Below, one piece after another: positions 12,640 to 34,740 of a stretch of 64,000 nucleotides of DNA. The position numbers and the translations under genes are program-made. The DNA lies in the NCBI RefSeq assembly GCF_004762035.2, contig NZ_SIJK02000005.1, forward strand, positions 1 through 64,000. The letters are read 5' to 3'. The notes under the pieces were generated by a model. That model saw nothing but the letters and a program-made list of their open reading frames with translations, was not told the origin of the DNA and did not search any database. This DNA comes from Candidatus Chloroploca mongolica. Lineage in GTDB: Bacteria; Chloroflexota; Chloroflexia; Chloroflexales; Chloroflexaceae. Position 1 is the stretch's first letter. Each line of letters starts with the position of its first letter.

Positions 12640-14087
12640 CCTTGTCTGACTATTTCGCTATGTTGCTGTGCAACGGGCTTGGCGTGCTGACTCACGCGAT
12701 CAACACTAATGATCAAACCAAGGAAGATCCAGTTATAAACGATATAACTGAAGCCTGTAATGCCCTGATTATAGGCAAACGGTAACATCCAATCACCAAA
12801 GATCATTGAAAACTGCGCAGCGATCCATCCACTAAGTGAAGTCATCGCCGTGATACGCAGTAGCCCTTCTGGGGCATTGCTCATCACTCGCCACCCATAG
12901 CGCACACTTGCCACGGTAAACCAGATCCAGACAGCCATCCCGACAAAGCCAAACTGCGCCAGGATATCCATATGATTATTGTGGGTTGAGCGGGCATCCC
13001 ATGGAAAATAGGTCATATTGTAGGGCGAGTAGCCAGCTGGTCCAGTGCCGAGGAACCAGTGATCAAAAATTACACCAAAGTTTCGTTCCCAAATCGCGAA
13101 CCGTTCTAGCCCACCCTCATCAATTTCTTCAGCGATCATTTGTTCAATCTGAGGGCGAATTGATCCAAAAAAGGTAAAGCTAATAGTCACTGCGATCAGA
13201 ATAGTAAATATTAAGCGTGAACGCATCCAGAGAATGATCGCTATGGCTAGAATAGTTGGAACCCAACCCGAGAGCCAGCTTGAGTTGAGGATCATCATAA
13301 CGTAGAGATGCCATACGATTAGTGTGATAATCAGCAAGCGCCAGTACCAACGCAGTTGTTGTGTCGTAAGTATGACAAAAAGTGAGACTACAGACCATAG
13401 ACCGCAACTACCACGGTCATTGAGGATGTTCTGGCGTATGCTGAAAAATTGTGTAACCGTCATTAATATGCCACAAACAATGAAACAGACTAGATAGAAT
13501 TTAATCTTCCAAGCTTGATCAATAAACCGTCCGACCAAAAAGGGAATACACATCAGGCTGATCATCGTCACGAGTGACCCGATCTGGGTGAAGATGAAGT
13601 TCCCTCCCATCACGCGCATATTGAGGATCGGATCGCGCCAGAGGATGCCCCAGGGCAATGAGATGATGCAGATCAGCATAAAGATCAGCAACGGCCAGGT
13701 AAAGGGCGACGCTGGCACTTGCCATTCACGCCGGACGATCATTGTTAGCCCCCAGATGGCAACGAGTCCGAGGGTCAGCACAAGACTGGCTGGCAGCGTG
13801 CTCTCGGTTCCGGTTGGCAATTCGATGAACCGGAGCAGCAGCGCGGTCAGGGGCAAGACCAAGACCAGGGTATCAAAGTAGCGCACCGAGGCACCAAAGC
13901 TTACGGCCATGAACGGCAAAGCTACCAGCGCCAGCATCGGGAGGATGCGCCCCGAGCCGCCAAGCAGTCCTATGAGCACGGTGAGGCCGAGCAACCCGAG
14001 CAGCACGCCCCCGATCTTTACCGTTCGGGGAAGCTGATGCAGCAGGTAGCCCAGGTAGCCAATGGTATCGCCACGGATCAGTTGCAT
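12636..14087 (-). CDS. O-antigen ligase/polymerase-like membrane protein (Wzy-like)
   Basis: 483 residues with about eleven membrane segments and the large periplasmic-side loop typical of Wzy/WaaL proteins. The loop contains HWFLGTGPAGYSPYNMTYFPWDA followed by THNNHMDILAQFGFVG, the H-N-x-x-L/DxxxxxG arrangement that is the best hallmark of this superfamily. It probably polymerises undecaprenyl-linked repeat units or transfers chains to an acceptor outside the membrane. Wzx-like flippases and a Wzz-like protein in the same locus favour the polymerase role. The start at 14087 lies 3 bp from the preceding stop. Confidence 0.85.
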   Translation of the reverse strand: MQLIRGDTIGYLGYLLHQLPRTVKIGGVLLGLLGLTVLIGLLGGSGRILPMLALVALPFMAVSFGASVRYFDTLVLVLPLTALLLRFIELPTGTESTLPASLVLTLGLVAIWGLTMIVRREWQVPASPFTWPLLIFMLICIISLPWGILWRDPILNMRVMGGNFIFTQIGSLVTMISLMCIPFLVGRFIDQAWKIKFYLVCFIVCGILMTVTQFFSIRQNILNDRGSCGLWSVVSLFVILTTQQLRWYWRLLIITLIVWHLYVMMILNSSWLSGWVPTILAIAIILWMRSRLIFTILIAVTISFTFFGSIRPQIEQMIAEEIDEGGLERFAIWERNFGVIFDHWFLGTGPAGYSPYNMTYFPWDARSTHNNHMDILAQFGFVGMAVWIWFTVASVRYGWRVMSNAPEGLLRITAMTSLSGWIAAQFSMIFGDWMLPFAYNQGITGFSYIVYNWIFLGLIISVDRVSQHAKPVAQQHSEIVRQG

Positions 14088-18512: not shown

Positions 18513-19840
18513 GCAGCCTCCGGGAACAAATTTGGCTGGTGCTGAGCGATGATGCGTGTGTAGGTTGCCAGCAGACAATCCAGTTCTTCATCAATGCTTG
18601 TGGGCGTGCGCACCCCCGCCACGAGCCGGGCGAGCAGCCCTGGCTCATCACGGAGCCGCTTGATCTGGCGAGCCAGATCTTTCGCCTCACCGGGGCGGAA
18701 GTGCAAGCCGTCGACCTCATCCTGGACAAGTTCGGCCATGCCGCCAAAAGCCGAGGCGAGCACAGGCCGTCCGGCACTCTGGGCTTCCAGGATGGTCAGC
18801 GGGCTATTTTCGTACCAGATCGAGGGCACAATGAGGGCATCAACCGTCGCCAGTACCTCGGCGATCCGTCCGTTCGCAAAACGCCCGGCAAGGGTGATCC
18901 GAGGATCTTTGGCCATCAGATTGCGCAGGCGCTGCGTATAGGTTGGATGCTGGTCAAGATCGCCATACACCTGCAACTGAACCGTGCGCTCACCTTGAGG
19001 CAGCAGGCGCAACGCCTCGATGATCAGATGTACGCCTTTGTGTTGCGCAATCTGTCCGATATAGGCGAGTTGCAAAGGATTGCCCTGTGGTGGTGGTGGG
19101 GAGTCCAGGTCTTTGGTATTGATCCCAAGGCGTACAACCTGAAGCCGCGAGGGCTCAACCAGGTCACGAAACATCCCGGCGAGAAATTGTGAAGGAGCGA
19201 TCACCAGGTTCGCCAGACCGAGGGCCTTGCGTAGATAGGCGCGTCGTGCCGCCTGTTCGTGGCGGCCCGCCTCGCCATTCAAGGCAATCCAGGTACGTCC
19301 GGCGGCACCACCACTCAGTTGTTCCGTCAGGCGATAGCGCCGTTGATCCTGTTGCAAGCACCACGCACACTCAGCCGGGTCGGTTGGTGGCGTCGTGCAG
19401 ACCTTGCCATCGCTGCGCAGCAGCGTAATGCGTGGACAGAGGAACCAGTAGTCATGCAGCGTCACAATGCTCGGCACCCCGAGTTGATGGGCCACCTCAA
19501 GCACACCTGCACCAATCAAATAGCCGCTCTGCAGGTGCAGTAGATCAGGCCGTGCGGCGCGCATATAGTCTGCAACCCACGCTGCCACCATCGGGTTTGC
19601 GTAGCTCCAGTTGCTCGGTGCATTGCGCAGCCCGAGGTGCAAACGCCAGACCGAAACACCTTCATAGGTATCCTGAATTGCCTCCACCCCGACGGGCCGC
19701 TCTTCATCAAGCGTCTCGATACAGACAACCTCGGCCTCGTGGCCCTGCTCAAGCAGCCAGCGGGCCAGCCGAAAGGTGTAGAGCTCGGCCCCGGCACTGT
19801 AGCGCGGCGGAAAGTGGTGAACCGCAAGCAAGACCTTCAT
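18509..19840 (-). CDS. Family 4 glycosyltransferase
   Basis: 443 residues. MKVLLAVHHFPPRYSAGAE is the GT4 start, HDYWFLCPRITLLRSDGK follows, and a Cys cluster (C in VCTT, ECAWCLQQ) is present in the acceptor domain, seen in a subgroup of GT4 enzymes. The donor domain has GQIAQHKGVHLIIEAL and VPSIWYENSPLTILEAQSAG. It closely resembles the GT4 gene at 21714-23108 in layout, including the Cys-rich segment, suggesting an old duplication. Start overlaps the flippase stop by 4 bp. Confidence 0.9.
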   Translation of the reverse strand: MKVLLAVHHFPPRYSAGAELYTFRLARWLLEQGHEAEVVCIETLDEERPVGVEAIQDTYEGVSVWRLHLGLRNAPSNWSYANPMVAAWVADYMRAARPDLLHLQSGYLIGAGVLEVAHQLGVPSIVTLHDYWFLCPRITLLRSDGKVCTTPPTDPAECAWCLQQDQRRYRLTEQLSGGAAGRTWIALNGEAGRHEQAARRAYLRKALGLANLVIAPSQFLAGMFRDLVEPSRLQVVRLGINTKDLDSPPPPQGNPLQLAYIGQIAQHKGVHLIIEALRLLPQGERTVQLQVYGDLDQHPTYTQRLRNLMAKDPRITLAGRFANGRIAEVLATVDALIVPSIWYENSPLTILEAQSAGRPVLASAFGGMAELVQDEVDGLHFRPGEAKDLARQIKRLRDEPGLLARLVAGVRTPTSIDEELDCLLATYTRIIAQHQPNLFPEAA

Positions 19841-21312
19841 AGTGCCCCCTGCTGTGGTTCCGCCGCTGCACGACGTGCGGCGAGCAAGCCACGCACAAAG
19901 ATCGCTTCTTCACGCCCTACGACCCGCAATGCAAGGAGCAGCCCACTATAGACGAGGGCGCCCAACGAAATCGTTACGACGACCGGCCACTCACGTCCAA
20001 CATAGACGAGCAATCCCATCACACCGACAGCGGCAACCGTACGCACCAGTTCACGCCACTGCATCTGCCCAAGCATATCGCGCAACAGCCAGAGATACTG
20101 GCTCACCAGGACAACCTCGGTGACAACGGTAATGATCGCCGCAGCGGCGACACCATAGAACGGGATCAGGGCCAGGTTTGCGACAATATTGATGCTGCTA
20201 CTGATCATAATTGCCCGCGCCACCTTGACTTCGCGCCCGGCAATAACGACCACATACCCCAGAAACTCGGATAAAAACATCAGCGGCACCGCCCAGATCA
20301 GCACCGCCAGCAACGGGGCCGCCGGTGCATACGCCGGCCCAAAGAGCAGCGCCACAATGGGATCTGCCAACAGATAACCACCAACCGCAATTGGCAAGGC
20401 CACCAGCATCAAATAGCGCAACATCCGCTCGTAGATCTGCGGCAACGTCTCGGGGGCCGTCGTCGCCTGCCGCGAGAGCGACGGATAGAGCGCGGTATTG
20501 AGTACATTCGAGAGCGTGACGAGGGCAAAGATCAGATTGTAGGCGGCATTGTAATGGCCGGTAGGCGTATCGCCGCTAAAGATATTGAGCAACACCGTAT
20601 CAAAACGGTACGAAATGCCGAGTGTCAGGCCAATCACGCCAAAAGGGAATGCCGCCCGCAACAACGAAAGCCAGCGCGCGCGACTGATCCGCCCGAGCCT
20701 GATCCCAAGCGGCTTCAAGGCCCGGACAACCAAGAGCGTCATCACGAAGACCCCGGCCATCGTTGCGAAAATCAGGCCATAGTAGCCGAAACCAAGCCAG
20801 AGGGCAAAGCCCCCAAGCACCACAAAAATCAACTGATTGACCACCTGCACGCCAGCGGTCAGATCAAGCCGCTCGTAGCCGGCAAGAATGGCGCTGCTAC
20901 TGCCATGCACCGCATAGATAAGCACCGTGACCGAATTGAGCGCAATAGCGCCAATCATCAGGCCAGGGCGCCCGGTCAACACGGCCGCAGTCACCACACA
21001 GATCCCGGCCACAACCGCCAGCATCAGGCGCAGCACAAGCACATCGGCATAGAGATCCCTGATGCGCTCGGGACCATCGGGAGCATCGCGCAGCCGGGCC
21101 ACCTCGCGCACTGTATACGGAGCCAGCCCGAGATCGGCGATGAAGAGAAAGACCGTGCCAAAACCGATCACCGCAGCATACTGACCAAAATCGGTCGCCC
21201 CCAAATTGCGAATGATCAGCACCGTGAAGGCAAACGACAAAAACTTGATCGCAAGTTGTGCGATCAAGCCCACGGCGGAATTACGCAAAATAGTTCGCGA
21301 AAGTTGCTGCAT
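19837..21312 (-). CDS. Polysaccharide flippase (Wzx/MVF-like), first copy
   Basis: 491 residues with about fourteen membrane segments. N-terminal ILRNSAVGLIAQLAIKFLSF and IRNLGATDFGQYAAVIGF are the hallmark of the oligosaccharide flippase (polysaccharide synthase) family. It should move undecaprenyl-linked repeat units across the cytoplasmic membrane. Two more flippases occur in the window (25501 and 57627), so several different units or a multi-step export may be served. The ATG at 21312 has no strong ribosome site, and 400 bp of intergenic DNA precede it. Confidence 0.9.
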   Translation of the reverse strand: MQQLSRTILRNSAVGLIAQLAIKFLSFAFTVLIIRNLGATDFGQYAAVIGFGTVFLFIADLGLAPYTVREVARLRDAPDGPERIRDLYADVLVLRLMLAVVAGICVVTAAVLTGRPGLMIGAIALNSVTVLIYAVHGSSSAILAGYERLDLTAGVQVVNQLIFVVLGGFALWLGFGYYGLIFATMAGVFVMTLLVVRALKPLGIRLGRISRARWLSLLRAAFPFGVIGLTLGISYRFDTVLLNIFSGDTPTGHYNAAYNLIFALVTLSNVLNTALYPSLSRQATTAPETLPQIYERMLRYLMLVALPIAVGGYLLADPIVALLFGPAYAPAAPLLAVLIWAVPLMFLSEFLGYVVVIAGREVKVARAIMISSSINIVANLALIPFYGVAAAAIITVVTEVVLVSQYLWLLRDMLGQMQWRELVRTVAAVGVMGLLVYVGREWPVVVTISLGALVYSGLLLALRVVGREEAIFVRGLLAARRAAAEPQQGAL

Positions 21313-21713: not shown

Positions 21714-23108
21714 CTACCGGGGCGTATGACACGGTGTGGCAGTATCGCCCCAGTTTCGTTCGTGGGCGCTGGTTCGTTCGTTGTTGCTGGCGGGTGTTTG
21801 TTGCCGGGTAAGCTGTTGATAGAGTCCTTCAAGCCGATCCATAGCTGCTTGGTGCGAGAAGAAGGGCATTGCGTTGGCCCGCAGGTGCGGCAGCAGCTCT
21901 GGCTCATCCAGCAAGCGTTGTAGATTCTGCGCCAATTCGTTGGGGTCATCCACAGCAAAAAGAAGACCGTTGCGGTTGTGCTCAACGAGTTCGGCAATGC
22001 CGCCAAGCTTTGTGCCCACAATTGGTACACCTACAGCCTGGGCCTCGAGAATGCTGTTGGGGCTGTTCTCAACCCAGCGCGACGGTACCACGACAACATC
22101 AAGCTGTGCCAGCACTTCCCACACCCCACTGCCCTGATAGGTGCCGTGCCAGGTAGCATCGGGGAGTTGCGCGAGCTCCTGACGAAGCTGCTGCTCGTAG
22201 TCTGGTTCACCTGCTGCCGAGCCATAGATCTCAAGACGGCGCGGTTGCGTTCCACGCAGCTTCTTCCACGCTTCAATCAGGAGATCCACGCCTTTGTGGG
22301 GCTTGACCTGGCCGAGATAGCCAACGCGCAAGGTGGCTTCGTTGGTACGCAGAGGGCATTGTGTCAACTCGACCCCCTGCCGCCAGACGCACATTCGTTT
22401 CTCATTTGTCCCGTGGCGCTGATAAAAATTAGCCAGGAATTGCGACGGAGCCAGCAAGACATCGGCTTTGGCGAGCGCCGCTTGCAGCCGTGCTGCGCGC
22501 GACGCCTGGGCCGGCAAGCCGAGCATGGGGCCGAGCAGATTGTCGGGTTGCACGAGTGACCAGGCCATATCAGCATTATTGGGTGATAGCTGCGCCGGCA
22601 GGCGAAAACGACGATGCTGTTCGGCATGGCAACGCGCACAGCCAACCTGACTCGGCTCGTCACACCGTTTGCCCAGCGGGGTCAGCAGATTGATGCGATG
22701 ACAGTGCCACCAGTAGTCGGTGAGATCAATCACCACGCGTACCCGGCGCGCGACTGCCGCATCAACGGTAGACGCCCCAAGCAGATACCCGCTGAAGAGA
22801 TGCAGCAACTCGGGATGCCAGTCGTCAATCACCCGACCAACGGCGGCCCCAAGCTCGGGATGGTCATAACTCCAACGAAAGGGATCGGGGTTCGCACCAC
22901 CACTGAAGGCCATGCGCCATACATCAATCCCATCCTGCGCACGATGCGTCATCCGCAGATCCGTGTGTTCGGCGTTATCGGTGTGAATACAGACGACGGC
23001 CACGTCATGACCGCGTTCAGCCATCGCACGGGCGGTACGCTCGGCTCGTCGTTCGGCACCTCCATTATGTTCGGGTGGATACCCATGCACTGCGATGAGA
23101 ATACGCAT
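21714..23108 (-). CDS. Family 4 glycosyltransferase
   Basis: 464 residues. MRILIAVHGYPPEHNGGAE starts the GT4 fold; the acceptor domain has a Cys pair (VGCARCHAEQ) like the enzyme at 18509-19840; the donor domain has GYLGQVKPHKGVDLLIEAW and VPSRWVENSPNSILEAQAVG. The C-terminal 25 residues are Gln/Asn/Arg-rich and outside the fold. It lies 18 bp after the SpeD-like gene and is probably co-transcribed with it. Donor sugar unknown. Confidence 0.9.
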   Translation of the reverse strand: MRILIAVHGYPPEHNGGAERRAERTARAMAERGHDVAVVCIHTDNAEHTDLRMTHRAQDGIDVWRMAFSGGANPDPFRWSYDHPELGAAVGRVIDDWHPELLHLFSGYLLGASTVDAAVARRVRVVIDLTDYWWHCHRINLLTPLGKRCDEPSQVGCARCHAEQHRRFRLPAQLSPNNADMAWSLVQPDNLLGPMLGLPAQASRAARLQAALAKADVLLAPSQFLANFYQRHGTNEKRMCVWRQGVELTQCPLRTNEATLRVGYLGQVKPHKGVDLLIEAWKKLRGTQPRRLEIYGSAAGEPDYEQQLRQELAQLPDATWHGTYQGSGVWEVLAQLDVVVVPSRWVENSPNSILEAQAVGVPIVGTKLGGIAELVEHNRNGLLFAVDDPNELAQNLQRLLDEPELLPHLRANAMPFFSHQAAMDRLEGLYQQLTRQQTPASNNERTSAHERNWGDTATPCHTPR

Positions 23109-23126: not shown

Positions 23127-23546
23127 TCATCGTTGATTTTGCCACATATGCAATTCGCGTTTCACATCACGTTCCCAGTGAATGCCCCGGTCGGCCACCT
23201 GGCGCTCGATAATTTCATAGCTGCCAAAGTGTTGCTCAATAACCTCTTCGGCTAAGATTGGATCAAATGGCTTGCACGAAAACACATCTAAAAAAGCTTG
23301 GCCGAGGTGTGGGTAGGTGTGGATCGCAGCGTGTGATTCGTACAGGATCACCACACCTGAACATCCCGCATGATCGGGTGGGCCATCTTCACGCCCGGCG
23401 AGCGGCCCCGCCAGGATGCGCATATCGAGCCGCCTGACCAGATCGATCAGAAACCCGTTCACTGCCGCTTCATTATCCAAGGCTTCCTGATTGGCAATGG
23501 CCCCGAGCCGCATGGTAAGGTGTACGCCGTAGATATCACGTGACAT
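23127..23546 (-). CDS. speD: SpeD-like pyruvoyl-dependent decarboxylase
   Basis: 139 residues, the size of class 1B S-adenosylmethionine decarboxylases. YESHAAIHTYPHLGQAF and VDVF-type LDVFSC show the self-processing and catalytic residues with canonical spacing: Ser71 (source of the pyruvoyl group after E70-S71 cleavage), His76 and Cys91, the same 5- and 15-residue steps as in the Thermotoga enzyme. AdoMet decarboxylase supplies the aminopropyl donor for spermidine; some SpeD homologues instead decarboxylate ornithine or arginine, and residues seen here do not settle which. ATG at 23544-23546 is chosen because AAGGAGGA lies 8 nt before it; it overlaps the asparagine-synthetase-like gene by 11 bp. 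Location inside a sugar-transferase operon is unusual. Confidence 0.85.
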   Translation of the reverse strand: MSRDIYGVHLTMRLGAIANQEALDNEAAVNGFLIDLVRRLDMRILAGPLAGREDGPPDHAGCSGVVILYESHAAIHTYPHLGQAFLDVFSCKPFDPILAEEVIEQHFGSYEIIERQVADRGIHWERDVKRELHMWQNQR

Positions 23547-25479
23547 AGTCTTCCTCCTTGTTAGTAATGAGCTCTCTTCCGTCTGGTGATGCGACATCAA
23601 ACAGCCGCCGCATCACCATCTCCAGGGTCAGCAGTGGTGCGATTTTGCCAATCGTCCAGAGTTGCTCGCCGGCAAGATGCTGCTGCCACAGCGAACGTAC
23701 CGCTGCTTGGTCAAACAGGCCGCGCTCGAGGGTGCGCTGATCAAAGAGGACGCTCTCGGCCCAGTTCCGTAGATCAGTGCGGAGATACGCTTCGTAATCA
23801 GCATAGAGACGCGGTCGTTGGGGAAAGAGCCCCCCAACACGTCGGTTGATCCAGGCCTTGCCTCGGCGCAAGAACCCGTCACCGTTGCGGAACAACTGGC
23901 TGCTATGGGGCAACCGGTCGTCTTTTTCGTAGGGCACTAGGGCGAGTTCCGGTTTGCGTTTGGTGAGAATAGCCCGCCGGAACTCCGGTTGCGTGCGGAT
24001 CGTGTCGGGCAAACAATACATAAAGTCAACAAAGCTGTAGTCGAAATAGGGACAACGTACCTCAAGCATTGAGCGTTGCGTGACGATCTGATTTTGTAGG
24101 CTGCGCCGAATCAGATTCTGGATAATAAAGTAGTCGGTGCGATGCGCGGGGCGGTAGTGACGTGTACGGGCGAGTTCTTGTCGCATCGATTCAAAGGCTC
24201 GATCCCGCAGATGAGTGCGGCCTGCTCCACTCAGCAGACTCGCCGCCTCACCTTCGCTCATGCCAGGCCAGGTGACATCTTGGCAAAAGGCGCGAAACAT
24301 GCGTTCATAAAAGGCTGTCTCGTCGGGTGGATGCCGATAATAGCGGTCAGCCTGATGCTCTTCGAGCACGGCAAACCCGCCCATCGTCGTGCCACCATCC
24401 CAGCCGCTCAGGTTCACATCCATATGCTGGCGTGCCGTGGCGAGCATGCTAATCCCGTGGGCGTGCATCCAGCTATGCATGCCTTCGGTCAGGGCTAGGT
24501 GCAGGTCGTGATAGGTCAGCACCCACCGTCCATCTTCCAGGGGTACCCAATGATGTTCAGCCCCGGCGCGGCGGGCGAGCCGTGCGGCATAGACGACATC
24601 ACGACTGCCCGGTGCACCAAAGGTGAAGGTCGGCGGTGGCGTGGGCTGATCGGCAAAGGCGAGAATGATACGCCCATCCAGCCCACCACTCAAGAAAATC
24701 CCCGGGCGTAACGGCGGCGCCGTCATCGCCTGAATTGCCCGTTGAAAGAGGCGACTCGCTTCCTCAACCGCTTCGTCAAAGGTCAGACCGGTGATTTCGC
24801 CTATCTGATCCCAGTCCCAATACTGCTCAAGGCTTAGTTGATTATGCTCCAGGTCGTAGCGCAGCAGCGAGGCGGGTGGCAAAAGCTGCACATCCGCAAA
24901 CCAGGTTTTGTTGCCGAGCAGTTGCTGAAAACGTAGATACTCGGCCAGCGCCGTTTCGTTGAGCCGCTGCGGTACCTCGGGCGCACTGATCACCCCTTTG
25001 AGCTCGGGCGCAAAGGCGAAGGCACCCCGGGCATAGGCATAGTAGTGTGGGTAGAGCCCGTAGCGATCGTTGATGAGCCAGAGGATCTGTGTCCGGCCAT
25101 CCCAGATGCTGCAGGTGAAGGCCCCATCAAGCTTGGTCAGCCCACTGGCCCCGTCGCGCAGAAAGAGGGCCAGCGCAAACTCGGCCGCACTTGCCTTGCT
25201 GTCTAGCCATCCTTCCCGTTCAAGCTGGTGGCGCTGCGCCTCCTGGAAGTAAAACTCACCGGCTAGGCAGAGCGCCACCTTGCCATCAGCGCTTTGCGCC
25301 GGTTGGGGTTGCTGATTGAGCAAACCAATATGCCGTCGCCCGAGGGCTACCTGCGGGCTGATCACCGTCTGTTCAAGCTGCTGGGTGAAGACATGGCGCA
25401 TTCGTGCGCCCATCGTCTGGATCACCTGGGCAACGGGTTGGGCTGTTGTGCGGCCAAGATAACCAAAAACTCCACTCAC
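23536..25479 (-). CDS. Asparagine-synthetase-like protein with altered active sites
   Basis: 647 residues with the two-domain layout of AsnB: an N-terminal class II glutaminase-like domain (about 2-200, with LAGEFYF, LDGAF and NDRYGLYPHYY) and a C-terminal adenylating domain (about 235-600). The protein begins MSGVFGYLG, so the Cys nucleophile of glutaminases is replaced by Ser, and the ATP-pyrophosphatase loop reads SGGLDGR (264-270) instead of SGGxDS. It is therefore unlikely to make asparagine from glutamine in the usual way; it may adenylate a carboxylate for amide formation with another amine, as related beta-lactam synthetases do, or be regulatory. It overlaps the SpeD-like gene, an attractive source of an amine substrate (inference). 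Confidence 0.85.
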   Translation of the reverse strand: MSGVFGYLGRTTAQPVAQVIQTMGARMRHVFTQQLEQTVISPQVALGRRHIGLLNQQPQPAQSADGKVALCLAGEFYFQEAQRHQLEREGWLDSKASAAEFALALFLRDGASGLTKLDGAFTCSIWDGRTQILWLINDRYGLYPHYYAYARGAFAFAPELKGVISAPEVPQRLNETALAEYLRFQQLLGNKTWFADVQLLPPASLLRYDLEHNQLSLEQYWDWDQIGEITGLTFDEAVEEASRLFQRAIQAMTAPPLRPGIFLSGGLDGRIILAFADQPTPPPTFTFGAPGSRDVVYAARLARRAGAEHHWVPLEDGRWVLTYHDLHLALTEGMHSWMHAHGISMLATARQHMDVNLSGWDGGTTMGGFAVLEEHQADRYYRHPPDETAFYERMFRAFCQDVTWPGMSEGEAASLLSGAGRTHLRDRAFESMRQELARTRHYRPAHRTDYFIIQNLIRRSLQNQIVTQRSMLEVRCPYFDYSFVDFMYCLPDTIRTQPEFRRAILTKRKPELALVPYEKDDRLPHSSQLFRNGDGFLRRGKAWINRRVGGLFPQRPRLYADYEAYLRTDLRNWAESVLFDQRTLERGLFDQAAVRSLWQQHLAGEQLWTIGKIAPLLTLEMVMRRLFDVASPDGRELITNKEEDYVT

Positions 25480-25500
25480 GGCGCTTGCTCCATTCTTCTT

Positions 25501-26991
25501 CTAGGGTGTCGTTGTCCGCAATCGTCGTAGTCGTTCGAGGCCCTGATTGATCAAGGCTTGATCAACGAGCCGCAGCCCGAGGGCCATGACTCCATAACTT
25601 GTTATGCCAATGATCACCGCCACAGGCAGGGGCAAATCTCGTCCCAACGCAACAGCCACGCCCATCACGACCGAGGCAAGCACAATGCGAAACATACGCG
25701 AACCGAGGGCCTCAAGCCGCATGCGTTTGCCGAGCAGGCCAAGAAAGAGCAGGGCACAGATGCCGTCGGTGATCACGGTGATCGCAGCTGCCGCGATGAT
25801 GCCATAGGCGGGAATGAAGATGAGGTTCAACCCGATATTCAAGATGGTGCCGAGCAGGTAGATGCGTGCCGCCGGCCATTCCAGGCCCATCGCGACCGCT
25901 GCACTCCCGCAAAAGGCGGTGAAGAGCAATAAGGGGATATCCCAGGCGAGGATGGCGAGGGCCGGCCCGCCGGGGGCAAAGGCCGTGCCAAAGAGGGTCG
26001 TCGTGACTGGTGTGGCGAGCAGGCTTAGCCCAACTGCCGCCGGCAGACCAAAAAACGCGAGCCAGCCTACGGTCGTACTTGTCCAGGCCTGTACCTGTTC
26101 GGGGTCATTGACGTGTTCGCGCGCCAGCGAGGGCGTCATTGTCAATAACAATCCATCGGCAACGGCCACGAGCTTGAAGACGAGGCCATAGACCGCGCTG
26201 TACCATCCCACTTCGCTATCGCTGCGCAGACTACTCAAGATAACGGCATCGGCATTGAAGTTGAAGGTGAGCGCGAGCGACGTCAGGCCAAAGGGAATGC
26301 CTGCAACGAGCAGGGTCGGCCAGCGGGTCAGATGGATGATCGGACGCAATGATCCGAGGCCGAGCCGTCGAATAAGCCGAATTGCCATCAGGATCTGGAC
26401 CGGCAAAATCAGGTAGCCAATGCTCAGCAAGCCCAGCACCCCGCCACCGAGCCACAGAACAACCAGACTGATCCCGATGCTCATCAATTGTGTGCGCACC
26501 TGGATCGCCGCGACTGCATCGAAACGCTCGGCCGCATTGAGCACCGAGAGCAACGGCATAAAGAGCGCCGCCAGCACAAAGGTGCCCGCATAGAGTACCA
26601 CGCCCATCACGAGATCCGGGTGATACCCAAAGCTCCAGGCAATGATCGGCAGCACCACAATCGCCGCAACTGCGAGGATGATGCGGAGCGCCATCAGATC
26701 GCCGAGCACCTCTTGAATCTTGCCGCCGTCGCGAGCCAGATTGCGCTCGACATACTGGGTCATGCCGAGTTCAAAGAAGACCCCGAACATCCCGACGAAC
26801 GCGATCACCGCTGCATACTGACCATACCCACTCGCGCCGAGCAGGCGCACAACTGCAATCAGATAGAAAAAGTTTGCAGCTTTAAGGCCCCAACTCGCCA
26901 CCGTGATGACAAGCGTATTCCGCAAAATAATCTGAGCAAGATCACGTTGTTCTGAAGACTGATTGTTTTGTTGCTTTTGTTGCTCTGTCAT
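25501..26991 (-). CDS. Polysaccharide flippase (Wzx/MVF-like), second copy
   Basis: 496 residues, about fourteen membrane segments, with ILRNTLVITVASWGLKAANF and RLLGASGYGQYAAVIAF at the N-terminus as in the oligosaccharide flippase family. It shares layout with the flippase at 19837-21312 but differs clearly in sequence. The N-terminal 20 residues are Gln/Asn-rich and cytoplasmic. 21 bp from the following asparagine-synthetase-like gene, suggesting co-transcription. It likely exports a lipid-linked glycan precursor. Confidence 0.9.
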   Translation of the reverse strand: MTEQQKQQNNQSSEQRDLAQIILRNTLVITVASWGLKAANFFYLIAVVRLLGASGYGQYAAVIAFVGMFGVFFELGMTQYVERNLARDGGKIQEVLGDLMALRIILAVAAIVVLPIIAWSFGYHPDLVMGVVLYAGTFVLAALFMPLLSVLNAAERFDAVAAIQVRTQLMSIGISLVVLWLGGGVLGLLSIGYLILPVQILMAIRLIRRLGLGSLRPIIHLTRWPTLLVAGIPFGLTSLALTFNFNADAVILSSLRSDSEVGWYSAVYGLVFKLVAVADGLLLTMTPSLAREHVNDPEQVQAWTSTTVGWLAFFGLPAAVGLSLLATPVTTTLFGTAFAPGGPALAILAWDIPLLLFTAFCGSAAVAMGLEWPAARIYLLGTILNIGLNLIFIPAYGIIAAAAITVITDGICALLFLGLLGKRMRLEALGSRMFRIVLASVVMGVAVALGRDLPLPVAVIIGITSYGVMALGLRLVDQALINQGLERLRRLRTTTP

Positions 26992-27174
26992 TATCCATAC
27001 ATAGAACGTTTCCAGATCGTTTGACGTAATGCAGTTACTCTGGAAATGCCCGTAGAATGGGACACTACTCTGGTTTCATGTTTAGCTGGTACTACCCAGC
27101 ATACCGTAGCCTGGTAACACTGTCCTAAATCTTGTGCTCTATGAGGTGACAGTTTTGTTTGGGCCGCACATTGC

Positions 27175-27312
27175 GCCCTTGCGCCTTTGCGTCAAAACAA
27201 ATAAGCTCACGCGAAGGCGCGAAGGCGCGAAGGGGTAACGCACCTAGGCTAAAACCTTTGTGCCCTTGCGCCTTTGCGTCAAAACAAATAAGCTCACGCG
27301 AAGGCGCGAAGG
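27175..27312. repeat. 51-bp direct repeats of a dispersed hairpin element
   Basis: 27175-27225 and 27262-27312 are identical 51-bp copies, each containing gcgcctttgcgt and acgcgaaggcgc arms (one mismatch) around a 16 nt centre. The second copy ends 3 bp before the stop codon of the gene ending at 27316. The remaining 26992-27174 interval holds no gene that I can see. Confidence 0.88.
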
Positions 27313-27315
27313 GTT

Positions 27316-28482
27316 CTACAGATAGTTCAGCACCTTGGGATACCGCTTGCGCAAATCCCGATATGCGCCGCTGAGCGGCACCAGGATCAACAGCCCTGCG
27401 CTGAACGCAAGGCACCCCCAGATGACGGCTGGCCCCGGGGTGGGTAGCACCGCGAAGATCCGGGCAATGAAGTGATAGACCACAATGTGCGCGACGTAGA
27501 AGAAGAGGGCGACCTGTCCAATGGTCACCAGTGGTTGGAGTGGGCCGCGGGCAAGCAAGTTGGGTACGGTGAAGAGGCCCGCCAGGATGAGCGCTGCCAA
27601 GCCCAGGTTGAACGCAAAATAGGTGAGACTCGGCGGGGCTTTGCTCATAATCAAGAAGTGCGCCGGGGTTCCGCCAACCTGACCGACTGATCCGAGATCG
27701 CCATAGCCGCCGAGCAAGCGCAGCCCAAGCCAGAGCCCGAGCAGAGCGATGCCCGCAAGCAGCCATGTGCGCGGCTGGCGCATTGCTTCACGCCCTTGCA
27801 GCGCCCCAAGCGCATACCCTAGCCACATCAATGGCCCCCAGCCCAGGATTGGAAAGCCGACCGCCGGTACCGTGTCGTAGCTATAGGTGAGCCAGAACGC
27901 CTGCCAGAAACCCTGCGGGGTGTCGGCAGCGAGGGCAGGCGCCATGGCCCCGATGACCCACTGGTAGCCGAGCAAGACTGCCCCTGCAACAATGGCGAGC
28001 AGGTGCTTTGGCAGGAGACGGAGCAAACTTAACATAACCATGGCAACCGCAATCGCGGTGAGCACATGCACATAGGGTGCGTCGCCCATCCAGAAGAACC
28101 AGCAGATCGTCAGATCGAGCACCAGAATCACTGCCGCCCGGATCAGCATGTACCGACTCACCGCCCAGTTGCTCCAGCCTTTGCGCTGCCGACCTGCACT
28201 AAAGAGCGCCAGGCTGTAGCCACTCAAGAGCCAGAAGATTGGTGAGGCAAGATTCGTGACCAGCCCCAGCCCCCAGTACGCAATGCTCTGGAGGGTGACG
28301 AACTGGCCGCCATACGACTCGGCCTGTAACCCGGCCCCCACAAAGAAACTGGCGTGGTCGAGCGCCATAAAGAGCATCGCCAGCCCGCGCAAGGCATCGA
28401 TGGCGAGAATGCGCGTGGTGCTGACCGCCTCTTCACGCGTCAGGACATCTGCTTTTTGAACGGTGCGTGCCTGGATCGCCAT
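27316..28482 (-). CDS. DUF1624 / HGSNAT-type membrane acyltransferase-like protein
   Basis: 388 residues with about ten membrane helices. STTRILAIDALRGLAMLFMALDH is the hallmark N-terminus of DUF1624 proteins, related to the catalytic region of heparan-alpha-glucosaminide N-acetyltransferase, with the conserved Asp-x-x-Arg-Gly and the following Asp-His. SPIFWLLSGYSLALF is also typical. Family members are thought to move acyl groups across the membrane onto amino sugars or related acceptors; this substrate is unknown. ATG at 28482 has AAGGG 9 nt before it. A 51-bp repeat abuts its stop codon. Modification of an amino group on the exported polymer would fit the neighbours (inference). Confidence 0.8.
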   Translation of the reverse strand: MAIQARTVQKADVLTREEAVSTTRILAIDALRGLAMLFMALDHASFFVGAGLQAESYGGQFVTLQSIAYWGLGLVTNLASPIFWLLSGYSLALFSAGRQRKGWSNWAVSRYMLIRAAVILVLDLTICWFFWMGDAPYVHVLTAIAVAMVMLSLLRLLPKHLLAIVAGAVLLGYQWVIGAMAPALAADTPQGFWQAFWLTYSYDTVPAVGFPILGWGPLMWLGYALGALQGREAMRQPRTWLLAGIALLGLWLGLRLLGGYGDLGSVGQVGGTPAHFLIMSKAPPSLTYFAFNLGLAALILAGLFTVPNLLARGPLQPLVTIGQVALFFYVAHIVVYHFIARIFAVLPTPGPAVIWGCLAFSAGLLILVPLSGAYRDLRKRYPKVLNYL

Positions 28483-28503
28483 ACGTCACCCTTTTCGATG
28501 AGT

Positions 28504-28546
28504 GGCCGAAGCATTGCCTTGGCTATGCCAAGGCAATGCTTCGGCC
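28504..28546. repeat. 19-bp perfect hairpin 3' of the spermidine-synthase-like gene
   Basis: 28504-28522 pairs perfectly with 28528-28546 around 5 nt. It starts 4 nt past the TAA at 28551-28553 and lies within a probable operon, where a strong terminator would be unexpected. No U-tract follows. Confidence 0.88.
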
Positions 28547-28550
28547 TTAC

Positions 28551-31022
28551 TTAGTCAGCCGCCAGCCCTGGTATGGAGCCAGACTCGGCTGGCACGCGTC
28601 GTTCCATCGTCACTCGCCAGAGGGCCGGGGCAACGATGGCGGCGGCACCATAGCAGATCGCTCCACAGATCATCGCGACGGTAAACGAGCTTGCCATGCT
28701 GATGATGATTACCATCACTGACCCGAGTACCGAGAAGACCCCGTTGACCCCCCACGCCCACGGGGTCAACGCTGGGGCCTGAGCCCCCAGTTGGCGCAGT
28801 CCCGTCGGGAAGGGCATGCCCATCACCAGCGACAGCGGTGCAATGAGGATGACGCTCACGATGGCCCGCGTCAGGTCAGGCAGATAGAGCAGGGCGGCAA
28901 AGATCGTGGGTAGGGCGAGAATGTAGAGCCCAATCAGGCCGACAATCACGGCGAGCGCGATGCGTAGCTGCGCCGCTGTTTGCAAGATCTGTCGCCCGAT
29001 CAGGCTGCCTAGGCCTGAAAAGACGAGCATGCTCGCAATCGTAATCGTGGTCGCATGAATAGGGTAGCCAATAAAGAGCGTAAAACGTTGAATGAGAATG
29101 ATCTGGACAAAGATATAGCCCGCCCCCAACAGGCTAAAGTAGGTCAGCACTGGCATCGCGCCGGGCGTTCGTAGTCCGTCACGCTTGTACCGGATCAAGG
29201 GCAGCACAATAAAGAGTGCTGCCGTGATCAGGGCCATGCTAAACATCGTCAGGAGGATGAGATTGCCAATAGGGAAGCGGTTCAACCGGCCTTCATATGC
29301 GCTATTGAAGTGCAGGTTGCTCCATTTGAAATAGTTGTAGAAGAAGGGATTGTCGTCGGTGACCGGGTAGATATGGAACGTATAGGCTGCCTCATACGCG
29401 CGTGGATCGGGCGCGTAGAGGTAATCGGCAAAGGCCGTTGTCTGCCGCACAAACGGGTCGTGCAGCATGCCAAAGTTGTTGGCCTCGGCCCAGGTACGCA
29501 GTTCGGTGATGGCCTCTTGGGTAAAGGGCGACGGCGAGACGAGCAGCGTTGCATTGCCGCCCGCTTCGTTGGCGACAATGGCAATATGCGCGGCTGGCTC
29601 GGCCACGCCATTGCGCCGCAACGCTTCGGCGGCCAGCCCCGTCAAGCGTAGCATCTCGCGGGGTGGGCTATTGACATCACGGGTCCACGAAAAGACCCCG
29701 TTGGGCGTGAGTTGACCGAGGGCTTGCTCGACGGCATCCACGGTGTAGAGGTATGACTCGGCTAGTACGTAGGCACCACCCGAAAGTGCTGCCAGGTTAT
29801 CAAGGCCAATGCCCTGAATGATGTCATACTTTTCGGTATTGCGCGTCAGGTAGCTCCGCCCTTCGGCAACAATCAATTCGGTACTCGGATGTTCGGCAAT
29901 GCGCCCGGTGTAGTCGGCATATGGGCCTTTGAGCAACGATACGATCGTCGGGTTCAGTTCGATCGCGGTGATCTTCCGCGCATCATAGAGCCGCGCAAGC
30001 AGAATATCGAGACCGCCACCGACCCCGATCAGCAAGGCAGCTGGCTCTTCCAGGCCGATATAGTAGGGCGCACTGATGACGGCGTGATCGAGAAAGCGGA
30101 AGCGCTCGAGATCGGCATCGCTGCCGTCAAAGGCGTACATCCCTGTCATCGAAGTCCCGTCAATCGTCAGCAGTTTCAGCGGCAGATCCGGCTTGCGCTC
30201 GAGATCTTGCAGATAGACCGAGCCGACCGCGCCGACGATCATCGGTTCGCGAACGACAATTTCCGGCATGACATCAACGCGCCCTACAGGATCCCAGCGC
30301 GTGTATTCTGGCCCGGTCTCCTGCGCCTGCATTGCCCAGCCCAGTTCCTTCGAGCCGGGTACCGGCAACCGCAAGGGCGCGACGGTCGCAATGAGGGTTG
30401 TGATCACTAGGGCAACGACTAGTGCCGCCGGGGCAAGCCGTCGCCAGCGCGGGGCCGTTTCGCTCCCTAGGAATAACCCCGCCAGGGCGACAACGGCTGC
30501 CACCAGCGCAATGGTGCCAGGCCCGCTGAAGGTCTGGATCAGCACCAAAACGCCGATGGTGCTGATCCCTGCGCCAACCATATCGGCAAAGTAGAGCCGG
30601 TGCGCTTGCCCGACCCAGCGACTGAAAATTGCAGCAATCGTAAGTCCACCACTGAAAAAAGTTGCAAAAAGACAACTAAAATAAATACCGAGACCGACAA
30701 TTGTCCAGGGCAACTGTCTTGCCCGCAGCGGATCAATGCCAACCAGGCTGATCGCAACAAGATTGACCAGGGTACACAGGCTAAAGATCACCGCAAGCAG
30801 ACCAATGCGTCGTCCGATTGTGGCGTGATCCCACTGGCGCACGGCGAGAAACGTTCCGGCTGCGCCACCGCCAAGCATGGCGACACCAATGACTAGATAG
30901 GTGAAGTGGTGCCAGATCATCAATGAGAAGATGCGCGTAAACGTGATTTGCAAGGCCAGAACCGCGCCTGAAATAAGGGCCAGTCCGACGTAGCGCTGCC
31001 AGGCTGTAGATGAAGTACTCAA
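28551..31022 (-). CDS. Membrane protein with spermidine-synthase-like domain
   Basis: 823 residues: N-terminal membrane helices (about 10-215), a soluble Rossmann methyltransferase-like domain (about 300-460), and C-terminal membrane helices (about 580-800). The central domain has LIGVGGGLDILLARLY (nucleotide loop, 332-347), AIELNP (353-358) and EGRSYL (387-392), matching aminopropyltransferases. The usual DSSDP motif with the catalytic Asp is not evident; the equivalent position reads IIQGIGLD, so aminopropyl transfer is unproven. Such membrane-fused proteins are widespread and mostly uncharacterised. The start is TTG at 31020-31022 with GGGGG 8 nt upstream. A SpeD-like gene, which could supply decarboxylated AdoMet, lies 5 kb downstream. 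Confidence 0.82.
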   Translation of the reverse strand: MSTSSTAWQRYVGLALISGAVLALQITFTRIFSLMIWHHFTYLVIGVAMLGGGAAGTFLAVRQWDHATIGRRIGLLAVIFSLCTLVNLVAISLVGIDPLRARQLPWTIVGLGIYFSCLFATFFSGGLTIAAIFSRWVGQAHRLYFADMVGAGISTIGVLVLIQTFSGPGTIALVAAVVALAGLFLGSETAPRWRRLAPAALVVALVITTLIATVAPLRLPVPGSKELGWAMQAQETGPEYTRWDPVGRVDVMPEIVVREPMIVGAVGSVYLQDLERKPDLPLKLLTIDGTSMTGMYAFDGSDADLERFRFLDHAVISAPYYIGLEEPAALLIGVGGGLDILLARLYDARKITAIELNPTIVSLLKGPYADYTGRIAEHPSTELIVAEGRSYLTRNTEKYDIIQGIGLDNLAALSGGAYVLAESYLYTVDAVEQALGQLTPNGVFSWTRDVNSPPREMLRLTGLAAEALRRNGVAEPAAHIAIVANEAGGNATLLVSPSPFTQEAITELRTWAEANNFGMLHDPFVRQTTAFADYLYAPDPRAYEAAYTFHIYPVTDDNPFFYNYFKWSNLHFNSAYEGRLNRFPIGNLILLTMFSMALITAALFIVLPLIRYKRDGLRTPGAMPVLTYFSLLGAGYIFVQIILIQRFTLFIGYPIHATTITIASMLVFSGLGSLIGRQILQTAAQLRIALAVIVGLIGLYILALPTIFAALLYLPDLTRAIVSVILIAPLSLVMGMPFPTGLRQLGAQAPALTPWAWGVNGVFSVLGSVMVIIISMASSFTVAMICGAICYGAAAIVAPALWRVTMERRVPAESGSIPGLAAD

Positions 31023-31043
31023 CAGTGGTTCCCCCTCGGTATT

Positions 31044-33071
31044 TCACAGAGCTGATAGACTGTACCCTGCTTCAATGGTTGTGCGTCCATGGGGCACATA
31101 AAAACTGACATATTCGTGTCCGGCAAGGCGGCGACGATGCCACGGATGGGTCTCGCCATTGAGACGGATGCTGCTCAACTCGGCCCCGTTGTGTTGCTGG
31201 GGGAGCATCAGTTCAAGTGGGCCGGCTGGCTGGGGGGGAAGATCGAGGATCGCCTGCCAGCGGCCTGTTGCGGCTTGCCATTGCACCTGCTCGACCCTGG
31301 CCGCCATGCGTGCCTCGACAAAAGCCAGCCAGCGTTCTGCCGAAAGGGTTGCCACGCCAAGGTCGGTGGCAAAGTCAAGCGTCTCTTCAAACCATTGGCC
31401 CACATTCGCCGCCTTCTCACCACCAAGCAGGAAGGGGTCAATATGGCACTGTACCCCCAGGGCCGACGGGTACCGCCCGACACTCTCGGCGATCTGGTGC
31501 CGACTGAGGCTTGCGGCCATTGACCCATCAAGGCCCTGGTCGTAGCCAGTATCGAAGACATTCATCATGTGCTCGTCAACCAGGTGGGTGGCCTGTTGAA
31601 AGACATTGAGCAGCGTGCCATCCTGGTCAATAAAACGCATCGGCAGCCCGGTGCCGCCGAGGTAGCCTGAACGCCACGCGCCATCAGCGGTGCGGACGGT
31701 GCTCCCAATGTGGTAATGGTCGAGGTTCATGCGCAGCCCATACTGCGCCTGAACACGGGCATTCTCGACCCACCCGTGCCAGAGGATGCGATGGGTACGT
31801 ACCGTCGGCGGGACTGGTCCATAGCCAAATTTCAGAAACTCATTCCAATAGGCGTTGTAGCCGTAGGCAAGGCCTTCTTCGACATACGGATGCATGCCAA
31901 ATTCATGGCCCCGTTCGCGCCACGCCGCCAGGTGCCCTGGTGTGGGCAGAGGCTGATCGCGCTCGAGCAGCACCCCCATCACCGGCACATCGGCAGCCCA
32001 CCACCGGGCCTTGCGGGTCATCCGTCCGAGCGTACTCGCCGGCGGGGGGGTGTAATAGACCGACATCGTGCCGCCCCGTTGCTCAACGCGGGCGAGCACT
32101 TCCTCGACATAATTGGCCGTACTGCCGTGGGCATCGCCTGTCGTCACCAGCACGCTCGGCGTTCCACCAGGAAAATACCAGAGCCTCGGCAGCGGCACGG
32201 TCGCACGGCTGAGTTCCAGCAGCATATTCGCGAGCAACCGCTGTTGTTCGTCAGCCTGCGGCACATGGATGCGCTCAACATCAATCCAATCCACAAACAT
32301 ATCAACGGCACGCACCCCTGGAATGTTATCCCGGTCGGTATCGGCCTCTTCGGGATTGCCCTGCCGTTGCAAGGCAATGCTGTGCGCCAGATCAAAGGCC
32401 CAGAGTGCCGCCCGGCCAGATCCAACATAATGCAGTGTGATCAGCGGTGCGCCTGTCTGACTACGGGCCAACTCTTGTGCCCCGGCCAGTTCGAGGCGAT
32501 CGCTCGGGCTGTGGTACTGCAAGCGCCCAGTTTCAATCCCGGCGACGGCTGGTGCCCCGGGCACAACTTGGAGCGAGCCACGTGCTTCGACTGCGCCAAG
32601 GTGACGCACGCCAAAGACCTCGTCAAGCCGTGGATCAGGGCGCAAGGCCAGGAGCATGCCACCCTCAACGACATAGCGTCGCAGCAGCGCCGCTTCGTCA
32701 GTCGTGACCGGCCCGGCGCTCAAGACGACGAGCGCATATTGTTGCAATGCTGTGAGCGTAAGCTTTGTCACCTCAGCCTCTTGAAACGCAAACAATCCCT
32801 CGGCTCGTAGGATCTCGGCCAGATACCCAGCAAACGACGGCACGGCACGCGCGTTGCTAACCACCAACAGCGGGGCCGTCGCAGGCGCAGGCAGGGTGGT
32901 GGCCCCTGCGACAACGCCGTGTTCAGGCCCAAAGGGTGGCGGGGCCTGACGCGCCTCAAGCCCATAACCAATCCCGGCAGTACTCAGCCCAACGGCACCA
33001 GCGGCAAGCGTGCCAAGAAACTGGCGGCGTGTCAGAAGGGTGCGTTGCTTCACCTTAGCGGGCCTCAACAT
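31044..33071 (-). CDS. Tat-exported polysaccharide-deacetylase-like protein
   Basis: 675 residues from the chosen start. The N-terminus has LLTRRQFLGTLAAGAVG, a twin-arginine signal. Residues about 70-260 resemble a class I glutamine-amidotransferase-like fold (VLSAGPVTTDEAALLRRYV, VVEGGMLLALRP), and about 290-560 a NodB/deacetylase-like barrel with VLVTTGDAHGS in place of the usual TxDD, GHEFGMHPY and QCHIDPFLLGG. Metal ligands could be Asp and the two His, but the canonical double Asp is missing. A C-terminal beta domain follows. Likely acts on the exported polymer outside the membrane. ATG at 33069-33071 is chosen to give a normal Tat n-region; it overlaps the Wzz-like gene by 17 bp and its ribosome site is weak. 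Confidence 0.72.
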   Translation of the reverse strand: MLRPAKVKQRTLLTRRQFLGTLAAGAVGLSTAGIGYGLEARQAPPPFGPEHGVVAGATTLPAPATAPLLVVSNARAVPSFAGYLAEILRAEGLFAFQEAEVTKLTLTALQQYALVVLSAGPVTTDEAALLRRYVVEGGMLLALRPDPRLDEVFGVRHLGAVEARGSLQVVPGAPAVAGIETGRLQYHSPSDRLELAGAQELARSQTGAPLITLHYVGSGRAALWAFDLAHSIALQRQGNPEEADTDRDNIPGVRAVDMFVDWIDVERIHVPQADEQQRLLANMLLELSRATVPLPRLWYFPGGTPSVLVTTGDAHGSTANYVEEVLARVEQRGGTMSVYYTPPPASTLGRMTRKARWWAADVPVMGVLLERDQPLPTPGHLAAWRERGHEFGMHPYVEEGLAYGYNAYWNEFLKFGYGPVPPTVRTHRILWHGWVENARVQAQYGLRMNLDHYHIGSTVRTADGAWRSGYLGGTGLPMRFIDQDGTLLNVFQQATHLVDEHMMNVFDTGYDQGLDGSMAASLSRHQIAESVGRYPSALGVQCHIDPFLLGGEKAANVGQWFEETLDFATDLGVATLSAERWLAFVEARMAARVEQVQWQAATGRWQAILDLPPQPAGPLELMLPQQHNGAELSSIRLNGETHPWHRRRLAGHEYVSFYVPHGRTTIEAGYSLSAL

Positions 33072-34740
33072 CGCCTGGTGGAGGCGTGACAATGACCCGA
33101 TCATCATTGGCACGGGGTGGCTCAGCTTGAGTCTGCTCAATCTGGGCGTCAACCTGCCCGTCTTCCAACATTGGCGCGTTCTTGACCAAGGGCAGCCACG
33201 GGTACTGGGTCTGGGCCGGGTGGGCCAGCACCTCTTCGGTGAGCATCACGGCCCCGAGCAGCGTGGTCTGCCGCTTGCGCGTCAGGCGTGCTTTGCTCTC
33301 GGTAATGGCGCCACGATTGTCATAAGCAGGATTGAGGGTGAGTACCACCCCATCAACCAGCGGGGCAAGCAGGGCGGCATCAACGCTCGGCAAGGTTGAT
33401 GGCCCATCAAAGATGACAATATCAGCGACTCGCTTCAAATGCTCGACCAGTTCGCTCCACGGCAGTGATGGTGTCAGGGCGACCCCATCTGGCCCCACAT
33501 TGTGTGCCAGCAAGAGCACATTCTTGAGCATGGTTGGGTACATCCGCGACCAGATTTCGGGTTTGCCGTTGGTGTAGAGCGTGCCATTCGCTTCGGGATG
33601 ATCACCAACGAGCATCCGGGTCAGGATGGGTTGTTCCATATCGGCATCAACGAGCAGGACACTATAGCCCGAGCGGGTAAAGAGTTGGGCCAGATCGATA
33701 CTGAAGGCGCTTCGTGCGTCCGACGGAGTCGGGCTGGTGATCATCAAGCTACTGCTGCCCTGTTCCATCGCCGCGAGCACGATGTTGGTATGCGCTTCAC
33801 GCATCGCGAGTTCACGTTGCCCGGCGCTGCCAGGCTTGAGCGTGATCAATGGGCGACGCCCTGGCACCAGACCAAGCGACGGCATCCCAAAGCGTGAACG
33901 TAGGTCACTCTTGCTGCGCCAGCGATCATCGAGCATATCGAGCAGCAAGGCCGCCAGAGCAGCCAGGATGAAACCACCCATACCAGCCATCGCGACTGTA
34001 AGCATGCGTTTATCGGGCAGCGGCTGGGTCGGTACACGCGCTTCTTCAAGCACCCTAAGCGTATTGGCGATACTCCCTTTTTCGATGAGGATCAGTTGAT
34101 TGTAGGTATCCTGGGTACTCTCGCGGGTACGCTCCAACTCGTCGATACGATTACGCAACTCACGCAGATCAGCGGCCCCCGACGTGCGTGCCTGCATTGC
34201 CCGGGTCTCGTCGAGGGTCTCATCAATGCGTCCGAGATTCGCCTGCACCTGGGTGAGTTGTTCCTGGATCAACAGGCGCTGTGACGCCACTTTTTCGGGC
34301 GAGTTGGGACTGTACGCAATCAACTCATTTGCAACAGCCGTCGCCAGCGCTGCCGCCCGTTCCGGGCTGGTGTCGGTAATTGTAATGTTGAGCAAGCTTG
34401 CCCGATTATTCACCGAGGTCGTGAGCATATAGTTTGCGATGACCTGCCATTCAAAGGCGAGCCCCAGCTTTTCAGTGACCGGGCCGAGGATCGGTTCACG
34501 GCGGGCCATTTCGCTATAAAACATGGCCAGCGCGTTGCTCAACCCGATCAACTGGGCATCAGGCGTTGCCGAGGTCAGCGAGTCACCAATCATCAAGGTG
34601 GTCTGGGCGACATAATATTTCGGCTGGCGCGAGGCCATGACAAAGGCTACGCCCGCGGCAAGGACGGTCCCCAGCACGAGAACCCACCACCAGCGCAAAA
34701 GAACGCGTAGATATGTCCATAGATCATCGAACGTCAGCAT
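33055..34740 (-). CDS. Wzz-like chain-length protein fused to degenerate BY-kinase domain
   Basis: 561 residues. A Wzz/GNVR-type part has membrane helix 1 (about 17-37), an extracytoplasmic coiled coil (about 150-220), a Pro-rich motif (VPTQPLPDKR) and helix 2 (about 246-269). The cytoplasmic domain resembles bacterial tyrosine kinases of capsule systems: VLLVDADMEQP (Walker A', 361-371) and VADIVIFDGPSTLPSVDA (Walker B) are present, but the P-loop position reads ITSPTPSDARSAFS without Gly-Lys-Ser/Thr, and there is no C-terminal Tyr cluster. It probably controls chain length or assembly without kinase activity. ATG at 34738-34740 is preceded by AAGAGGAG-like sequence upstream. Confidence 0.85.
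   Translation of the reverse strand: MLTFDDLWTYLRVLLRWWWVLVLGTVLAAGVAFVMASRQPKYYVAQTTLMIGDSLTSATPDAQLIGLSNALAMFYSEMARREPILGPVTEKLGLAFEWQVIANYMLTTSVNNRASLLNITITDTSPERAAALATAVANELIAYSPNSPEKVASQRLLIQEQLTQVQANLGRIDETLDETRAMQARTSGAADLRELRNRIDELERTRESTQDTYNQLILIEKGSIANTLRVLEEARVPTQPLPDKRMLTVAMAGMGGFILAALAALLLDMLDDRWRSKSDLRSRFGMPSLGLVPGRRPLITLKPGSAGQRELAMREAHTNIVLAAMEQGSSSLMITSPTPSDARSAFSIDLAQLFTRSGYSVLLVDADMEQPILTRMLVGDHPEANGTLYTNGKPEIWSRMYPTMLKNVLLLAHNVGPDGVALTPSLPWSELVEHLKRVADIVIFDGPSTLPSVDAALLAPLVDGVVLTLNPAYDNRGAITESKARLTRKRQTTLLGAVMLTEEVLAHPAQTQYPWLPLVKNAPMLEDGQVDAQIEQTQAEPPRANDDRVIVTPPPGDVEAR

Follow-up and report, generated by a model that had tools for sequence, protein, structure and literature searches.

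A probable arginine decarboxylase gene occupies a conserved and unusual place inside a glycan operon of the lineage formed by Candidatus Chloroploca, a filamentous phototroph, and Candidatus Viridilinea. The window in which we studied it is a stretch of 64,000 nucleotides from Ca. Chloroploca mongolica (contig NZ_SIJK02000005.1, positions 1 to 64,000), and the gene, at 23127..23546 on the minus strand, codes for a SpeD-like pyruvoyl decarboxylase of 139 amino acids. This enzyme is probably of the SpeDA kind, forming agmatine from arginine, and not an S-adenosylmethionine (AdoMet) decarboxylase, as its place in the tree and the gene neighbourhoods of its relatives suggest. A wider statement, that an agmatine-forming decarboxylase, amide ligation by an AsnB-like protein and use in a glycan before Wzx export belong together, is tentative, and we place it a little below an even chance. 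Its most specific form is rather unlikely: a surface glycan of the two genera would bear amide-linked agmatine, and thus a guanidinium group. A pyruvoyl arginine decarboxylase dedicated to this use and a glutaminase-less AsnB-like ligase, both encoded in one Wzx-dependent operon, would make it.

The SpeD-like gene and its glycan locus

Gene order and conservation were observed directly, as were the motifs and tree position presented below. The open reading frame (ORF) starts with an ATG at 23546, preceded by AAGGAGG, and stops at 23127. Its product matches the Pfam family AdoMet_dc with 63.7 bits (cut-off 25), and the gene is the sole PF02675 match in its 6.3-Mb genome. An earlier note on this stretch had remarked that Ser71, His76 and Cys91 are kept: the three residues are invariant in an alignment of 15 sequences. 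The AlphaFold model has a mean pLDDT of 88, and its top matches in the PDB are to the AdoMet decarboxylase of T. maritima. Within the genus, the gene is under strong purifying selection (dN/dS 0.06-0.12); no ratio is given against Viridilinea because synonymous sites are saturated.

The AsnB-like gene (23536..25479, minus strand, Asn_synthase 92.9 bits) codes for 647 amino acids and lies directly upstream of the SpeD-like gene. Next to it is the gene of a Wzx-like flippase (25501..26991, Polysacc_synt_3 75.8 bits). The gene that follows SpeD codes for a GT4 glycosyltransferase (21714..23108, Glyco_trans_1_4 109.9 bits), and the same locus holds a second Wzx-like flippase (19837..21312, Polysacc_synt 101.1 bits), in an order preserved in Viridilinea. 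A Wzy/O-antigen-ligase-like protein (12636..14087, Wzy_C 44.5 bits) belongs to the wider locus. All these genes are on the minus strand, and the flippases and glycosyltransferases that had been noticed on the strand of SpeD are thus borne out by Pfam matches, with the Wzy-like protein in addition. The overlap of 11 bp between the SpeD-like and AsnB-like ORFs, also pointed out earlier, is present in the window but is not conserved: a gap of about 15 bp separates the two ORFs in Ca. Viridilinea.

Some SpeD match is found in 32 of the 158 genomes of the class. Close copies occur in three Ca. Chloroploca genomes and in Ca. Viridilinea (66%), and in all four genomes the Wzx and AsnB-like genes immediately precede the intact gene. 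A third genus, represented by MAG.66 (G028), carries a truncated trace, namely an N-terminal SpeD piece near a contig end, and a second SpeD beside a speE (L037). The conserved neighbourhood that the earlier note expected is therefore found in two genera for the SpeD, AsnB-like, flippase and glycosyltransferase genes, but the membrane protein that it also included stands apart, as discussed in the last section.

We compared 13 AsnB-like loci: the window and 12 loci from a scan of named genomes. The flippase gene adjoins the AsnB-like gene in nine. SpeD is intact in four (the window, L111, L112 and L113) and truncated in one (L114); the other eight show no SpeD, one of them, L117, being uninformative since it ends inside the AsnB-like gene. 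L104/L121 and L116 have no SpeD, and in them a relative of the window GT4 gene directly follows the AsnB-like gene. Because the two genes touch there, SpeD looks inserted between them, though a loss elsewhere may be the cause instead. No report of a SpeD gene inside a glycan operon or locus was found in the excerpts of the literature searched.

Two further genes of the window, at 36445-38251, code for a GmhB-like phosphatase, which scores over the NCBIfam cut-off of a heptose enzyme, and a GHMP-family kinase; they hint at heptose in the glycan. Near AsnB-like genes elsewhere, a similar kinase is found in L104 and L119, and both kinase and phosphatase in L122.

Relatives of the SpeD-like protein

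SpeD homologues, mostly clustered with speY and/or speB, have been assayed as arginine decarboxylases, and the lack of a spermidine synthase served as a criterion in the search for them, according to the excerpts of Li et al. (2023, PMC10407285). The relatives of the window SpeD share this published setting: agmatine is therefore the likeliest product, and we infer that the substrate is arginine. Like SpeDA in that paper, the window protein has the class 1b SpeD fold, with the Ser/His/Cys triad at the standard spacing, and a tree position beside homologues linked to speB or speY. The four carriers of an intact SpeD yielded no spermidine synthase of normal size, their PF01564 frames being all long (442-587 amino acids), so that all four share the absence used as a criterion in the excerpts of PMC10407285. 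Unlike SpeDA, the window SpeD lies among flippase, AsnB-like and glycosyltransferase genes, and its activity is a predicted one. A speB and/or speY gene is not present at the own loci of the window clade, although it is seen beside the SpeD of the genome G481.

In Chloroflexota at large, 152 of 400 genomes have matches to the SpeD profile, and we read the neighbourhoods in 33 larger loci. SpeD adjoins speE in six of these, and in 15 its neighbour or fusion partner is an agmatinase-like and/or a deoxyhypusine-synthase-like gene, both settings being seen in L258. Four of the 33 are the AsnB loci, and nine others have neither kind of gene directly beside SpeD; L045 and L046 have a SpeE match about 5 kb away.

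The tree was computed with 35 homologues, excluding L033 (near-identical), L036 (broken), L048 and L050. A starred branch (100/98) separates the speE-linked from the SpeB/SpeY-linked homologues, with the window clade on the SpeB/SpeY side. Among the 16 rows labelled SpeB/SpeY, one, L253, was labelled only from its kinship and ORF length. Outside the class, the nearest relative found is that of G481, with 54% identity to the window SpeD and in the same starred clade (98/99); it is followed by an agmatinase gene above the NCBIfam cut-offs and by a deoxyhypusine-synthase-like gene. A loop of six residues tells the same two groups apart: it is filled in 16/16 SpeB/SpeY rows and in the three rows of the window clade, and empty in the six SpeE rows. 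A scan of viral contigs, in which 80 of 212 relatives were kept, and searches of phages and plasmids gave distant SpeD relatives only.

In other families of Chloroflexota, SpeD is fused to a deoxyhypusine-synthase-like domain (L251:6194-7792, L252:7451-9106 and L259:5470-7068). The frames, of about 530-550 amino acids, are apparently SpeDA and SpeY in one protein.

A possible use of agmatine in the glycan

In the route that we propose, Ser71 would cleave its own chain to yield the pyruvoyl group, and the enzyme would decarboxylate arginine to agmatine. The amine would then be supplied where the glutaminase-less AsnB-like protein could act, and this protein could link it by an amide bond to a carboxylated sugar, ahead of export by Wzx. 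If the decarboxylase does feed the glycan, it would give bacteria a way to make a guanidinylated polymer with positive charge, and decarboxylases derived from SpeD would have a role beyond polyamine metabolism. For amides of putrescine or agmatine with a uronic acid, the excerpts of the literature searched gave nothing on point.

We infer the role of the ligase and the glycan product from the place and the residues of the AsnB-like protein. Like AsnB and its relatives (TIGR03108, PDB 7YLZ), it has two domains, Asn_synthase and GATase_7 in Pfam; its score with TIGR01536 is 164.6 bits, for a cut-off of 267.1. Unlike AsnB, it has Ser for Cys2, AGE for NGE, SGGLDG for SGGxDS, and GWDGGT, without the GDE, for GDGGDE. 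In all nine members of the family that were aligned, the glutaminase Cys2 is replaced by Ser and the asparagine of NGE is missing, and eight, the window included, have SGGLDG. At the place where seven Cys-bearing relatives of the class read GDGGDE or GEGGDE, the nine carry residues like GWDGGT; the seven were retained from 12 distant loci, L060, L063, L068, L075 and L080 being dropped, four because their longest ORF is not the AsnB-like gene, and L080 because its MCG start lies too far in for the selection rule. The altered active site that had been noted in this partner protein is thus real. Without its glutaminase, the protein would be suited to ligating another amine, by analogy with beta-lactam synthetase. 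The structure model of the AsnB-like protein is poor (mean pLDDT 53) and was left out of the argument.

The AsnB-like family itself also supplies evidence that weighs against the proposed route. Members with and without SpeD share the same lost residues, so that the losses are not linked to any amine that SpeD may supply; we rejected the loss of Cys2 as a sign of SpeD-linked amine use, since Ser2 is also found in members without SpeD. Moreover, the motifs of the synthetase half are altered too, which may mean a different chemistry or none.

The AsnB-like and Wzx genes were seen in another setting in L102:7594-19899 (Chloroploca Khr17) and L116:8349-17862: after them come a thioesterase-like gene and genes that read, by eye, as polyketide synthases, in L116 behind an intervening GT4 gene. 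This setting suggests that the AsnB-like/Wzx pair also serves a polyketide or lipid product. The glutaminase-less AsnB-like family, which is found with or without SpeD, and twice beside genes read as polyketide synthases, is itself worth testing.

There is also the possibility that the same enzyme makes agmatine for ordinary polyamine synthesis, through an enzyme of the deoxyhypusine synthase family encoded elsewhere, and that gene transfer put it into a glycan operon by accident, where shared inheritance has kept it. This explanation is a serious one, even if we hold it to be on the doubtful side. The window genome has a match to 1,9-bis(guanidino)-5-aza-nonane synthase (577.6 bits, cut-off 500), an enzyme that uses agmatine, which speaks for agmatine as the product under our own reading too, and all four genomes with an intact SpeD encode this synthase with at least 88% identity to the copy of the window genome. 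In addition, the nearest outside relative, that of G481, sits in a polyamine gene group, and SpeD and its locus could be inherited as a block. However, the synthase is found at 66% identity or more in 12 of 82 genomes of the order, and six of the 12 have no SpeD match: SpeD is therefore not required for the synthase, which leaves room for a use in the glycan operon. Nor does the accident fit easily with a SpeD that, in two genera, lies in a glycan operon and has no SpeB or SpeY neighbour. Even if the glycan has no part in it, a SpeDA-type gene is found here away from its usual polyamine operon.

One observation cuts both ways. A frame for a SpeA-like pyridoxal-phosphate decarboxylase was found in 7/7 genomes tested, and agmatine therefore need not come from SpeD, be it for polyamines or for the glycan. 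The three frames that were checked are all under the SpeA cut-off. The window genome has such a decarboxylase below cut-off and an arginase above cut-off, and of the two ureohydrolases found in it neither is over an agmatinase cut-off.

Other substrates and the membrane SpeE-like protein

Several observations on the SpeD-like protein itself count against arginine as its substrate. The window clade joins, at 92/69 and hence under the starred level, three rows with long branches: the SpeD of phage phiN3, the homologue of L040, and an unassayed protein of a Pelagibacter phage. The phiN3 protein is reported to be a true AdoMet decarboxylase in the excerpts of PMC9992855, and it too has the long loop. 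The window protein reads HTYP, that is, it has the proline of the HT-P motif, whose position was inferred from the text of a paper; this proline is called constant in AdoMet decarboxylases in the excerpts of PMC10407285. Finally, the same excerpts report that an assayed SpeD homologue of Chloroflexota, from Anaerolinea thermophila, is an ornithine decarboxylase.

An improbable explanation, but one to be weighed, is that the window protein truly decarboxylates AdoMet and hands the product to an aminopropyltransferase that escaped recognition, such as the fusion of MFS and SpdSyn domains, 554 amino acids long, that the window genome encodes. Besides the phiN3 precedent and the intact catalytic Ser/His/Cys and HT-P motifs, it has in its favour that the fold and the self-processing residues are those of class 1b AdoMet decarboxylase (T. 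maritima, PDB 1TLU/1VR7). However, the loop is longer than in SpeE-linked homologues, no normal SpeE partner was found, and both the side of the tree and the neighbours of the relatives argue for a different substrate. The score with TIGR03330, the NCBIfam model of AdoMet decarboxylase, is 55.9 bits, under the cut-off of 75.65; this is weak evidence, since a SpeY-fused homologue passes with 85.7 bits. The Trp-Pro-Glu of the T. maritima enzyme is Tyr-Pro-His in the window and Tyr-Pro-Cys in Viridilinea, which we take as a pointer only, because no paper on the AdoMet-binding residues of the bacterial enzyme was found in the excerpts of the literature searched, PMC12467396 included. Among the amines considered in the earlier note, agmatine is a better fit than decarboxylated AdoMet.

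That the enzyme is an ornithine decarboxylase (SpeDC) making putrescine is very improbable: the A. thermophila precedent and the junction with L040, which reads as ornithine-decarboxylase-like, speak for it, but four putative diagnostic positions (Q, T, F and Y, as inferred from L040) read V, E, T and F in the window, and the nearest relative adjoins an agmatinase.

Just as improbable is the full pathway first imagined for this locus, in which SpeD, the AsnB-like protein and a membrane SpeE-like protein of 823 amino acids (28551..31022, minus strand) would together make an amine or aminopropyl group and transfer it to a lipid-linked glycan. The three genes share a strand and fit into about 8 kb in two of the Ca. 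Chloroploca genomes; in the third they take 11 kb. However, the membrane protein of Viridilinea is on a different contig, with its own two neighbours and no SpeD. Across the class, this protein is found in 33 of 158 genomes (E 1e-20 or better), of which 23 have no SpeD match, as is the case for 16 of the 20 genomes whose loci were read. We therefore rejected its gene as a pathway member, and the idea of the three genes as one unit is not supported.

The spermidine-synthase-like domain that had been seen in it holds as a weak match (best E 7.5e-4, with residues 302-444 matching weakly in a comparison with SpeE, PDB 1UIR), but neither Pfam, PF01564 included, nor NCBIfam gives a match at E 0.001. 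Unlike SpeE, the protein does not keep the DxxD motif: GLDNL stands there in 20/20 loci read. Both aspartates of the motif are replaced in the spermidine-synthase alignment, and one remains if the alignment is read without the gap. The suspicion of an altered active site was justified here as well, aminopropyl transfer by this protein loses its footing, and the tempting reading of the locus as SpeD plus SpeE is corrected.

The membrane protein has a conserved neighbourhood of its own, a trio of Chloroflexales that spans 27316-33152 in the window, on the minus strand. The large protein 'Deac' (31044..33152), polysaccharide-deacetylase-like by reading only and matched by neither Pfam nor NCBIfam models at E 0.001, adjoins it in 20/20 loci, and an acyltransferase-3 protein (27316..28482, Acyl_transf_3 53 bits) in 14/20; the flank in these loci is about 1.5 kb, and shorter where a contig ends.

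One result, which we keep as a caveat, favours the pairing of the earlier note: distant relatives of the membrane protein, with 26-32% identity, adjoin SpeD-SpeB in two of five informative loci of another Chloroflexota family, f63. The pairing is present in L248 and L249 and absent in L250, L262 and L264; L263 and L265 are uninformative, their contigs starting within 1 kb of SpeD. The two relatives, at L248:4757-7483 and L249:8943-11465, adjoin SpeD and agmatinase-like genes.

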